A program made the position numbers and the translations under genes. The notes under the pieces are model-generated. The model worked only from the letters and a program-made list of their open reading frames with translations, did not search any database and was not told where the DNA came from. A stretch of DNA of 64,000 nt, from contig NZ_PCOZ01000006.1 of the NCBI RefSeq assembly GCF_002979555.1, positions 186,001 to 250,000 on the forward strand, given 5' to 3'. Origin of the DNA: Pseudomonas sp. MYb60 (GTDB lineage: Bacteria > Pseudomonadota > Gammaproteobacteria > Pseudomonadales > Pseudomonadaceae). Positions 52,160-57,649 of the stretch are shown piece after piece; position 1 is the stretch's first letter; each line of letters opens with the position of its first letter.

Positions 52160-52256
52160 GGAAACAGCGCGCGCCGGGCCTGCCGAAAAAGGGGGGCGCG
52201 GATTATAGCGGAAATCGCTCAAGGTTTAACCAGTTAATATGCAAAGGAGTCGCCAC

Positions 52257-52271
52257 GCACTAAAGAGGTGC
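52257..52271. promoter_or_regulatory. NtrC-type enhancer site 1 of glnA
   Basis: GCACTAAAGAGGTGC matches GCACC-N5-GGTGC at 9 of 10 positions. Its centre is about 138 bases before the predicted start site, the same place as the distal strong NtrC site of E. coli glnAp2. Confidence 0.75.
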
Positions 52272-52287
52272 GCCTGACCGCTTCGGC

Positions 52288-53960: not shown

Positions 53961-54080
53961 GCCCGGAATTTACAGCCCTGCGCCGAGCAGCAGTCGGAAG
54001 CCGGCTCGGCTGCTCCCACCGTTGAACAGAGTGCCTCCCGGCACCCAATTACAGTCTTCCTGAACACGCTTCACAAAACC

Positions 54081-54095
54081 GCACTATATTGGTGC
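54081..54095. promoter_or_regulatory. NtrC-type site upstream of ntrB
   Basis: GCACTATATTGGTGC matches GCACC-N5-GGTGC at 9 of 10 positions. It implies autoregulation of ntrBC, either activating the candidate promoter at 54223 or repressing a promoter overlapping it. Confidence 0.75.
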
Positions 54096-54222
54096 GATAG
54101 GCTGCACCCTTCCCGCCGGCCAGCCCATTTTGGTTCGAAACTTCCCGAGCAAGCTGGCAGAACGCCACAGTTTCGCGCTTCAAACGCCTATTTCAGGGCT
54201 CGCGCGCTTCTTTTCGGAGCCT

Positions 54223-54294: not shown

Positions 54295-55380
54295 ATGACC
54301 ATCAGCGATGCACTGCACCGTTTGCTACTCGACAACCTGACCACCGCGACCATCCTGCTCAATGCCGACCTGCGCCTTGAGTACATGAACCCGGCGGCGG
54401 AGATGCTCCTGGCCATCAGCGGCCAGCGCAGCCATGGGCAGTTCATCAGCGAATTGTTCACCGAGTCGGCCGAAGCCTTGAGTTCGCTGCGCCAGGCCGT
54501 GGAGCAGGCACACCCGTTCACCAAGCGCGAAGCGATGCTCACCGCCCTCACCGGCCAGACACTCACCGTGGACTACGCCGTGACCCCGATCCTGAGCAAC
54601 GGCGCCACCCTGCTGCTGCTCGAAGTGCACCCGCGTGACCGCTTGCTGCGCATCACCAAGGAAGAGGCCCAGCTGTCCAAGCAGGAGACCAGCAAGATGC
54701 TGGTGCGCGGCCTGGCGCACGAAATCAAGAACCCCCTCGGCGGGATTCGCGGCGCCGCCCAGTTGCTGGCCCGCGAGCTCCCCGAAGAGAGCCTCAAGGA
54801 CTACACCAACGTCATCATCGAGGAAGCCGACCGCCTGCGTAACCTGGTGGACCGCATGCTCGGTTCGAATAAATTGCCTTCGCTGGCGATGACCAACGTG
54901 CACGAAGTGCTGGAGCGCGTCTGCCAACTGGTCGAGGCCGAAAGCCAGGGCTGCATCAACCTGGTGCGCGACTACGACCCGAGCATCCCCGACGTCCTGA
55001 TCGACCGCGAGCAGATGATCCAGGCGGTGCTCAATATCGTGCGCAACGCCATGCAGGCCATCAGCAGCCAGAACGAGCTGCGCCTGGGCCGCATCAGCCT
55101 GCGCACCCGCGCCCTGCGCCAGTTCACCATTGGCCACGTGCGCCATCGCCTGGTGACCAAGGTCGAGATCATCGACAACGGCCCGGGCATTCCCGCGGAA
55201 CTCCAGGAAACCATTTTCTTTCCCATGGTCAGCGGCCGCCCGGACGGTACCGGGCTGGGCCTGGCCATTACCCAGAACATCATCAGCCAGCACCAGGGAC
55301 TGATCGAATGTGAGAGCCATCCTGGCCACACCACGTTCTCGATCTTTCTGCCTCTGGAACAAGGAGCCCCATCGACATGA
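54295..55380 (+). CDS. ntrB: Nitrogen regulation sensor kinase NtrB (GlnL)
   Basis: The 361-residue soluble kinase/phosphatase phosphorylates NtrC under nitrogen limitation and is controlled by PII. An N-terminal PAS domain (about 10-110) is followed by the H-box GLAHEIKNPLGGIRGAAQLL (His about 142). The ATP-binding N, G1 and G2 boxes are NIVRNAMQAI, DNGPGIP and GTGLGLAI. ATG 54295 has AGAGGT upstream; an earlier start at 54130 is rejected. It overlaps ntrC by four bases (ATGA). Confidence 0.97.
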   Translation: MTISDALHRLLLDNLTTATILLNADLRLEYMNPAAEMLLAISGQRSHGQFISELFTESAEALSSLRQAVEQAHPFTKREAMLTALTGQTLTVDYAVTPILSNGATLLLLEVHPRDRLLRITKEEAQLSKQETSKMLVRGLAHEIKNPLGGIRGAAQLLARELPEESLKDYTNVIIEEADRLRNLVDRMLGSNKLPSLAMTNVHEVLERVCQLVEAESQGCINLVRDYDPSIPDVLIDREQMIQAVLNIVRNAMQAISSQNELRLGRISLRTRALRQFTIGHVRHRLVTKVEIIDNGPGIPAELQETIFFPMVSGRPDGTGLGLAITQNIISQHQGLIECESHPGHTTFSIFLPLEQGAPST

Positions 55381-56813
55381 GCCGTAGTGAAACTGTCTGG
55401 ATCGTCGATGACGACCGTTCTATCCGCTGGGTCCTCGAGAAAGCCTTGCAACAGGAAGGCATGACCACCCAGAGCTTCGACAGCGCCGATGGCGTCATGA
55501 GCCGCCTCGCACGCCAGCAGCCGGACGTGATCATCTCCGACATTCGCATGCCCGGCGCCAGTGGCCTGGACCTGCTCGCGCGGATTCGCGAGCAGCACCC
55601 GCGCCTGCCGGTGATCATCATGACCGCGCACTCCGACCTGGACAGCGCTGTCGCGTCCTACCAGGGCGGCGCCTTTGAATACCTGCCCAAGCCGTTCGAC
55701 GTGGATGAGGCCGTGGCGCTGGTCAAGCGCGCCAACCAGCACGCCCAGGAACAGCAAAGCCAGGAAGCCCCCCCTGCCCTGACCCGCACCCCGGAAATCA
55801 TCGGCGAAGCGCCGGCGATGCAGGAAGTGTTTCGCGCCATCGGGCGCTTGAGCCATTCCAACATCACCGTGCTGATCAACGGCGAATCGGGTACCGGCAA
55901 AGAGCTGGTGGCCCACGCCCTGCACCGTCACAGCCCACGGGCGGCCTCGCCGTTCATTGCGCTGAACATGGCGGCGATTCCCAAGGACCTGATGGAGTCC
56001 GAGCTGTTCGGCCACGAAAAAGGCGCCTTCACGGGCGCGGCCAACCTGCGACGCGGGCGTTTCGAGCAAGCCGATGGCGGCACCTTGTTTCTGGACGAAA
56101 TCGGCGACATGCCGGCCGACACCCAGACTCGCCTGTTGCGGGTACTGGCGGACGGTGAGTTCTATCGCGTGGGCGGGCACACGCCGGTCAAGGTTGATGT
56201 GCGCATCATCGCGGCGACCCACCAGAACCTGGAAACCCTGGTACACGCGGGCAAGTTCCGTGAGGACTTGTTCCACCGCCTCAACGTAATCCGCATTCAT
56301 ATCCCACGCATGTCGGACCGTCGCGAAGACATCCCGACGCTGGCCCGTCATTTCCTCAGCCGTGCCGCCCAGGAGCTGGCCGTCGAGCCGAAGCTGCTGA
56401 AAAGCGAGACCGAGGAATACCTGAAGAACCTGCCGTGGCCGGGCAACGTGCGCCAGCTGGAGAACACCTGCCGCTGGATCACCGTGATGGCGTCCGGGCG
56501 CGAAGTGCACATCAGCGACCTGCCCCCGGAACTGTTGAGCCTGCCGCAGGATTCGGCACCGGTGACCAACTGGGAGCAGGCCCTGCGTCAGTGGGCCGAC
56601 CAGGCCCTGGCGCGCGGCCAATCGAGCCTGCTGGACAGCGCCGTGCCGGCGTTCGAGCGCATCATGATCGAGACCGCCCTGAAGCACACCGCCGGTCGCC
56701 GTCGCGATGCCGCTGTGTTGCTGGGTTGGGGGCGTAATACCCTGACACGCAAGATCAAGGAGCTGGGGATGAAGGTCGATGGTGGTGATGATGACGAGGG
56801 CGACGAGGCTTAA
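55377..56813 (+). CDS. ntrC: Nitrogen regulation response regulator NtrC (GlnG)
   Basis: The 478-residue sigma-54 activator has a receiver domain with phospho-Asp in ISDIRMPG (Asp about 54). The AAA+ domain carries Walker A GESGTGKE, the sigma-54 contact loop GAFTGA and Walker B GGTLFLDEIGDMP. The Fis-type helix-turn-helix is at the C-terminus (GRRRDAAVLLGWGRNTLTRKI by its ends). It activates glnA and, from the sites found, probably its own operon. An acidic Asp/Glu/Gly tail ends the protein. Confidence 0.98.
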   Translation: MSRSETVWIVDDDRSIRWVLEKALQQEGMTTQSFDSADGVMSRLARQQPDVIISDIRMPGASGLDLLARIREQHPRLPVIIMTAHSDLDSAVASYQGGAFEYLPKPFDVDEAVALVKRANQHAQEQQSQEAPPALTRTPEIIGEAPAMQEVFRAIGRLSHSNITVLINGESGTGKELVAHALHRHSPRAASPFIALNMAAIPKDLMESELFGHEKGAFTGAANLRRGRFEQADGGTLFLDEIGDMPADTQTRLLRVLADGEFYRVGGHTPVKVDVRIIAATHQNLETLVHAGKFREDLFHRLNVIRIHIPRMSDRREDIPTLARHFLSRAAQELAVEPKLLKSETEEYLKNLPWPGNVRQLENTCRWITVMASGREVHISDLPPELLSLPQDSAPVTNWEQALRQWADQALARGQSSLLDSAVPAFERIMIETALKHTAGRRRDAAVLLGWGRNTLTRKIKELGMKVDGGDDDEGDEA

Positions 56814-57208
56814 GGGTGCACCGCTTCAATGCACCATGAACCGGCATTGGGCATGGATCCAACCTATGAGACTTCGGCCTCACTGATAAAAATCTAAAAG
56901 CCTCAAACACCAAAGCCCCGTACTCCGGGGCTTTGCGCTTTCTGGATAAATTTTTCGGCCCACTTCGACGACTCTGGCACGCGCCCTGCAATAACCCCTG
57001 TACTACCCAGTTTCGGGGACCTTGGTACAGGCAGGCCGAGAATCCCCTCTTTACACCCGGGGTGCTTGATGCGAACCGCGTCGCGCCCCACAACCGTTTC
57101 GGGAACCTCGGTACAGGCAGGCCGGGGATTCCCTCTTTAACACCGAAGCCCTCGCGGCTTCACCCCGTTTTGGGAGCCCTGGTACAGGCAGGCCGGGAAC
57201 TCCCGCTT
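56814..57208. other. ntrC - unknown gene gap: terminator plus three-copy hairpin array
   Basis: The 395-base gap between convergent genes holds the ntrBC terminator and, from 57011, the repeat array. The interval 56950-57010 shows nothing I can name. No coding sequence is credible. Confidence 0.7.
56911..56945 (+). terminator. Terminator of ntrBC
   Basis: CAAAGCCCCG and CGGGGCTTTG pair perfectly over a 5-base loop and are followed by CGCTTTCT, about 100 bases past ntrC. The first half is A-rich, so it could also act on the minus strand. Confidence 0.85.
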
Positions 57209-57210
57209 TT
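57011..57210. repeat. Array of three 43-base hairpin elements with invariant loop
   Basis: Copies at 57011-57053, 57097-57139 and 57168-57210 share the exact core GGTACAGGCAGGCCG. Each folds into an outer stem of 5 pairs, a short internal bulge and an inner stem of 5 pairs closing the ten-base loop TACAGGCAGG. The stems change in paired fashion: outer GGGGA/TCCCC, GGGAA/TTCCC and GGGAG/CTCCC; inner CTTGG/CCGAG, CTCGG/CCGGG and CCTGG/CCGGG. Linkers contain smaller palindromes (GAAGCC-CTCGC-GGCTTC at 57145-57161). On the plus strand each copy ends in CTTTA or CTTTT. The last copy overlaps the stop codon of the minus-strand gene. Confidence 0.8.
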
Positions 57211-57649
57211 ATTGCTCCTGGAGATGGATCTCCACCCGCCAGCGGCCTTCGGCCTTCTCGCCATTCCATTCCCCGCGCAACGGCCGAGCGGCCACCAGGT
57301 TCAGCAACAGGCCGCCATCGGTCTTGCGCACGCGCCAATTCACATCCTTGTCGTTGACCTTGAGCTTGCCGCTCGCGGCCTTGCCCTGGGCGTCGAACAA
57401 CAGCGCCACGGTGCCGTCGATGTGCTCGCCGTGCAGCTTGGGTTCGCTGTTGAACCACACCACCACGCTGTCCGCTGCGGTCTCGACCTGTTGCAGTTCG
57501 ACCGGCTCCGGGGTGGTCAGGCGGCCGATCATCAGGCCGACCATTACGCCGACGATCGCCAATGAACCCATGACCTTCGGCATTAGCTTCGGTCTTGGGT
57601 CGTCTTCAGGGGTAGAATGCAGCGCATCTTTACCTTCGGAGCCGTGCAT
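57209..57649 (-). CDS. Unknown small membrane-anchored protein
   Basis: The 146-residue protein has a charged N-terminus (about 24 residues), one membrane helix (VMGSLAIVGVMVGLMIGRL, about 26-44) and a soluble beta-rich domain of about 90 residues (VVVWFNSEPKLHGEHIDGTV, WRVEIHLQEQ at the end). I know no function; its position between ntrC and trmL is conserved with PAO1 as I recall. The ATG at 57649 overlaps the trmL start on the other strand (CATG). A second in-frame ATG at 57583 just before the helix is the alternative, and neither has a clear ribosome site. The hairpin array lies directly at its 3' end. Confidence 0.75.
   Translation of the reverse strand: MHGSEGKDALHSTPEDDPRPKLMPKVMGSLAIVGVMVGLMIGRLTTPEPVELQQVETAADSVVVWFNSEPKLHGEHIDGTVALLFDAQGKAASGKLKVNDKDVNWRVRKTDGGLLLNLVAARPLRGEWNGEKAEGRWRVEIHLQEQ

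Follow-up and report, generated by a model that had tools for sequence, protein, structure and literature searches.

The region downstream of ntrC in the 64,000-nucleotide stretch of Pseudomonas sp. MYb60 DNA analyzed here (the window) contains three similar hairpins that share one loop, and the question raised by this locus is what these hairpins are. An initial annotation offered three options, namely a new family of palindromic repeats, an RNA derived from the 3' untranslated region of the neighbouring gene 57209-57649, or a DNA site for a protein. We are almost certain that the array is instead the nrsZ gene, encoding a plus-strand RNA of about 215 nt with three hairpins that would be activated by NtrC and sigma-54; the loop is likely the pairing element, and the third hairpin would end the transcript. 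The array is already known as NrsZ, and the observation is real although not new.

Three hairpins with an unchanged loop

The three copies were confirmed in a repeat search of the window at 57005-57052, 57091-57138 and 57162-57209, with spacings of 86 and 71 bases, and the second and third copies are each 81% identical to the first. The loop (TACAGGCAGG) is unchanged in all three, and the paired substitutions described for the stems were read from the sequence as claimed: the successive copies have G-C, A-T and A-T at the fourth outer pair, A-T, A-T and G-C at the fifth, and T-A, T-G and C-G at the second inner pair. The small palindromes reported for the linkers are also present, and linker stems likewise occur in the Rfam consensus structure of NrsZ.

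Folded singly, the plus-strand copies adopt the proposed hairpin at -16.4, -19.9 and -18.1 kcal/mol (copies 1, 2 and 3 respectively), whereas the minus-strand copies are weaker in folding (-11.6, -13.0 and -13.5 kcal/mol). The single-copy folds were found to be moderately better than those of shuffled sequences (z of -1.63, -1.94 and -1.17) and the fold of the whole array slightly better (z of -1.23). The minimum-energy structure of the whole array retains module 2 intact and the inner stem alone of module 1, with module 3 being lost. The hairpin of module 3 together with its tail is likely to be the terminator of the RNA. The features of the locus are listed in Table 1.

Table 1. Features annotated at the nrsZ locus, in window positions. 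The training set of the single-module model included these three copies.
Feature	Position	Strand	Basis or remark
ntrC, activator gene	55377..56813	+	Open reading frame; Pfam Sigma54_activat (242 bits), Response_reg, HTH_8
NtrC-like dyad TGCACC-N5-AATGCA	56817..56833	+	About 160 nt upstream of the promoter GG
Terminator-like hairpin with T-rich tail after ntrBC	56912..56945	+	Between dyad and promoter; read from sequence
Sigma-54-type promoter CTGGCACGCGCCCTGCAATA	56974..56993	+	GG at 56976, GC at 56988 (GG-N10-GC, 56976-56989)
NrsZ small RNA	57004..57219	+	Rfam RF02695
Hairpin module 1	57009..57058	+	Loop 57026-57035; 69.8 bits, single-module model
Hairpin module 2	57095..57144	+	Loop 57112-57121; 75.4 bits, single-module model
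Hairpin module 3	57166..57215	+	Loop 57183-57192; 67.9 bits, single-module model; tail CTTTTATT
Convergent gene, 146 aa	57209..57649	-	Open reading frame; stop codon overlaps the U tract of the sRNA

Assignment to the NrsZ family

When all 4227 Rfam families were searched for in the window, a sole match exceeded the cut-off, namely RF02695 (NrsZ, nitrogen-regulated sRNA) with 142.3 bits against a cut-off of 76.9 and E = 1.1e-35, aligned over the full length of the model (positions 1-236 of 236). This is far beyond chance and bears out the three covarying hairpins with an invariant loop. The copies thus match a catalogued family, although this is the sRNA family RF02695 and not a REP. Apart from the score above the gathering cut-off, membership in RF02695 agrees with the position downstream of ntrC, the sigma-54 motif and the loop motif ACAGGCAG, which is the same in all three loops of the window. 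Only one match to the NrsZ model, the array itself, was found in the MYb60 genome (5.58 Mb, 46 contigs).

In reviews, NrsZ of P. aeruginosa is described as arising from the ntrC-PA5126 spacer under the control of NtrB/C and RpoN upon nitrogen limitation, with a length of about 226 nt, and shorter forms (about 40 and 140 nt) are said to be abundant; its first 60 nt and its first hairpin are reported to be functional, and NrsZ to activate rhlA (PMC8395346, PMC9308961). The conserved motif given for NrsZ is ACAGGCAG (PMC9308961). The Hfq cross-linking study of PMC6890931 names NrsZ as one of the sRNAs whose enrichment was higher, though not significantly so, in planktonic P. aeruginosa. The MYb60 array resembles NrsZ of strain PAO1 (PA5125.1) in its place after ntrC, its sigma-54-type promoter motif, its ACAGGCAG motif and its three hairpins, and differs from the reference in the species and in linker lengths that deviate from the Rfam consensus. 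The assignment is based on the family match, the place, the promoter motif, the RNA-level covariation, the strand and the conservation observed for the window locus. By analogy with PAO1, the control by nitrogen, NtrBC and RpoN, the short forms, the function of the first 60 nt and the action on rhlA may also hold in MYb60.

Two other sRNAs offer a comparison. CrcZ of Pseudomonas, which has been linked to CbrA/B, is like NrsZ in being an sRNA under a nutrient-sensing two-component system and in adjoining the gene of the activator; it sequesters Hfq/Crc through A-rich motifs, and none were noticed by eye in the window array. GlnZ of Enterobacteriaceae, from the glnA 3' UTR, is likewise a nitrogen-regulated sRNA of the gln/ntr region, whereas it is described as being set free from an mRNA 3' UTR (PMC9731577) and NrsZ has its own promoter.

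Upstream elements and proposed activation

The name ntrC was assigned from domain architecture and place. The array begins at 57004, downstream of the end of ntrC at 56813, and this matches the place of NrsZ in the ntrC-PA5126 spacer of PAO1. Between the two lies a GG-N10-GC element. Such an element was found in 98 of 99 loci, at a distance of 46-69 nt upstream of the first loop, some genomes being represented by more than one locus; the one exception (L091) is a cut piece. The sigma-54 assignment rests on this cross-locus comparison in place of a degenerate sigma-54 pattern, which gave 82 matches over the window against 77.7 expected, i.e. a number at chance level, and missed the true site. 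From the promoter motif, the RNA would start near 57001.

The dyad at 56817-56833 fits 11 of 12 positions of the NtrC consensus, and is one of two dyads with this score in the 64-kb window. A dyad scoring 11/12 was also observed 150-161 nt upstream of the promoter GG in 21 of 30 loci of relatives (L002-L031), where the arms are conserved and the spacer varies; among the more distant loci, many show it less clearly. The terminator-like hairpin at 56912-56945 was absent from the list returned by a consensus terminator scan.

Taken together, these elements are consistent with a mechanism in which phosphorylated NtrC, bound some 160 bp upstream of the promoter, would activate sigma-54 RNA polymerase there when nitrogen is limiting. 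The product would be a plus-strand RNA of about 215 nt carrying three copies of one hairpin, the exposed loop ACAGGCAG would be the likely base-pairing element (seed) toward target mRNAs, and the third hairpin with its U tract would end the transcript. A catalogued nitrogen sRNA is hereby placed in the MYb60 genome with a promoter and a likely enhancer.

Two further NtrC-like dyads were noticed at 52256-52272 (CGCACTAAAGAGGTGCG) and 54080-54096 (CGCACTATATTGGTGCG), upstream of genes that by eye are glnA-like and ntrB-like respectively. Both match at 10/12 positions, a score reached by 19 sites in the window, and they are therefore weak when taken alone.

Covariation and coding strand

The 31 loci with strong NrsZ matches gave 125 modules, 82 of them distinct, and the latter were aligned for covariation. 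The 11-pair hairpin was found to be paired in 98.6% of the 902 cells, with two-sided changes at five pairs. None of 500 shuffles attained the paired percentage, either of the two-sided counts or the covariation score, a control that is lenient since the aligned rows are related, whereas the number of additional pair types was unremarkable (attained in 108 of 500). Controls in which the pairing was slid were paired to 71.5% at most.

The most telling position is pair 18-27, which is U.G in 82 of 82 modules, and U.G is also the commonest form at pairs 14-31 (56/82) and 15-30 (54/82). On the minus strand these conserved pairs would be A.C, so selection appears to act on the plus-strand RNA, and as far as the aligned sequences tell this speaks strongly against the selected entity being a DNA palindrome or an RNA of the minus strand. 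The initial interpretation therefore stands in part: the hairpins are RNA-like and selected and the loop is the conserved element, whereas a new repeat family and a 3' UTR of 57209-57649 do not hold.

The second of these, in which 57209-57649 on the minus strand would supply the RNA from its 3' UTR or be served by an array of terminators, draws on the position of the array just past the stop codon of that gene, which is as the initial annotation had it. However, the RNA indicated by the U.G pairs lies on the plus strand, opposite to the gene, so that it is not the 3' UTR of this convergent gene; read from the minus strand, the conserved U.G pairs become A.C mismatches and the folds are weaker. 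The array also has its own sigma-54-type promoter motif on the opposite strand, and several relatives carry a module with no homologue of the 146-aa gene found beside it. We consider this origin most improbable. A DNA site for a palindrome-reading protein would account for a central motif that is invariant and repeated, yet it fits poorly and is just as improbable, as the retained U.G positions break the DNA palindrome of the arms and the covariation preserves RNA pairs including G.U.

Distribution and variation in module number

With the NrsZ model, matches at E <= 0.001 were obtained in 291 of 298 genomes of the same genus, 203 of the 298 being above the cut-off, and in none of 14 control genomes. 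The module number was observed to vary between species from 1 to 7. Among the 31 strong loci, arrays of three modules were the most common (16 loci), followed by four (7), seven (4), five (3) and six (1). The 40 genomes picked for a weak match to the NrsZ model (E of 7e-18 or weaker) gave one strong module in 38 cases and two in the remaining 2, with an additional faint second match in 2 of the 38 single-module genomes. The three-hairpin Rfam model thus appears to give low scores to species that have a single hairpin, and a model of one module would yield a fuller annotation of NrsZ. Dose and redundancy could also be tested through the natural variation in module number.

Across the family, 117 of 148 genomes carry a module, as do 15 of 19 genera; among the genomes listed in this set, the 19 of the same genus have one (5), two (5), three (6) or four (3) modules. 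An order-wide draw of 293 genomes gave 15 with hits, 13 of these within the family. The other two hits, from another family (L085 and L086), were rejected as NrsZ since they fall within a reading frame of 421 codons that by eye codes for a phosphofructokinase-like protein. The ten named stretches with the motif pattern that were retrieved are labelled Pseudomonas (nine) or Pseudomonadaceae (one). NrsZ is thus an array of variable length that in these samples is confined to one family. These additions to what is known of NrsZ are modest, and we do not claim the variation in module number as unpublished.

The likeness of the units bears on a new dispersed palindromic (REP-like) family maintained by a copying mechanism. 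Copies are alike within a genome, and in all eight arrays of at least five modules the likeness within the array exceeds that between arrays, by 0.03 to 0.16 (for example 0.96 versus 0.80 in L005 and 0.79 versus 0.76 in L003), which fits tandem duplication or conversion. A dispersed family is nevertheless contradicted by the single locus in the MYb60 genome: a search of this genome with the single-module model recovered the three array copies alone, the next best hit having 15.9 bits (E 0.6). Furthermore, 38 of the 40 relatives with a weak NrsZ match have one strong module, and a catalogued RNA family, RF02695, spans the whole array. We give this explanation hardly any credence, and nrsZ remains the reading adopted for the array.

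Seven genomes of the same genus are without an NrsZ match and gave no convincing module, with one faint hit of 21.4 bits. Three of the same genus (G037, G157 and G273; 99-100% complete) have neither an NrsZ nor a single-module match; they are assembled in about 80, 270 and 1200 contigs respectively, and both assembly gaps and true loss are possible.

Possible termination at the modules

The rule that the last module alone acts as a terminator was clear in a first set of loci and failed in a second one, and it was rejected. In the first set, which comprises 61 loci (31 strong and 30 weak NrsZ matches), last modules had a T run of at least four in 31 of 32 cases and sole modules in 29 of 29, the figure for non-last modules being 8 of 95. 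The second set comprises 39 loci with 85 modules placed by the covariance model, and with L094 (a piece of a split array) omitted it provides 38 arrays; here such a run is present in 11 of 19 last modules versus 22 of 46 non-last ones (Fisher p 0.59). An earlier version of this set, made by motif search (36 arrays, three cut pieces dropped), had given 11/17 versus 16/39 (p 0.15) and is superseded by the covariance placement since the motif search overlooked the divergent last modules of L082-L084. The rule is kept in L067-L070, L072 and L075-L077 (8 of 8 last and 0 of 16 non-last modules), all of which belong to the genus of the window, with one genome shared with the first set. It is broken in L080 of the same genus and in L082-L084, L087, L088, L091-L093, L096 and L105, and being kept in some loci and broken in others it is a clade trait at most.

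For the window, the ends predicted after modules 1, 2 and 3 are at about 53, 138 and 215 nt. These lie near the 40, 140 and 226 nt of PAO1, which, as a guess, would allow for partial termination in addition to the processing that has been reported. A broader proposal would be that NrsZ gains and loses copies of one terminator-like hairpin bearing the seed, that the short RNAs come from partial termination at internal modules and not from cleavage alone, and that the module number sets the dose of the seed; we put this forward tentatively and regard it as rather unlikely.

Search for targets of the loop

The antisense of the loop (CCTGCCTGT) occurs 48 times in the MYb60 genome, three of these being the array itself, and the other 45 were all inspected. 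No convincing leader target of the loop was found among these 45 sites or among the matches listed in a leader search in 15 genomes, and no target is claimed; NrsZ may base-pair with targets other than rhlA. The best leader site lies 39 nt before a gene that by eye is KefB/KefC-like, and it was rejected as it is altered in the two closest homologues and missing from seven others (ten loci including that of MYb60). One site is common to the MYb60 genome and G005; it is located 37-40 nt upstream of the start of an mdcC-like gene, where it falls within the final codons of an mdcB-like gene (names by eye). Codon conservation explains this recurrence equally well as pairing does, and the site was not retained as a target.

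Among the matches listed in the leader-pattern search of the 15 genomes, sites precede benA-like, iscS-like and ABC-permease-like genes in two genomes each. The matched letters of these sites are not among the 11 of the MYb60 genome, and the ABC-permease-like sites fall at the end of the upstream gene (names by eye). In L188 (G009) and L190 (G013), the loop-antisense sequence CCTGCCTG is located just before the ribosome-binding region of the iscS-like gene, and in L184 (G005) and L185 (G002) it precedes the benA-like gene, which has an A-rich leader (names by eye). The iscS-like and benA-like genes are possible NrsZ targets in those relatives.

Convergent gene and neighbourhood

The 3' end of the RNA would probably fall in the U tract (about 57207-57215), which overlaps the stop codon of 57209-57649, the convergent gene. 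No Pfam match was found for this gene, and its homologues adjoin nrsZ in the loci of many relatives. A SpoU-type methylase gene on the plus strand, called trmL by eye, is located downstream of the start of 57209-57649.

In thirteen loci (L048-L050, L071, L098, L099, L106, L038, L056, L062, L089, L090 and L095) the module was observed beside a gene that by eye is MshQ/PilX-like, and homologues of the 146-aa gene and of trmL were not found within the retrieved pieces of these loci. In L038, L056, L062, L089, L090 and L095 ntrC still adjoins the module. It looks as if a pilus-type cluster was inserted after nrsZ in these relatives. In G310, a genome of a sister genus, two NrsZ modules are located on separate contigs (L097, 2008-2057, and L098, 1855-1904), one of them some 0.7 kb upstream of a trmL homologue, the other near an MshQ/PilX-like gene (name by eye), and this is possibly a duplicated NrsZ locus.
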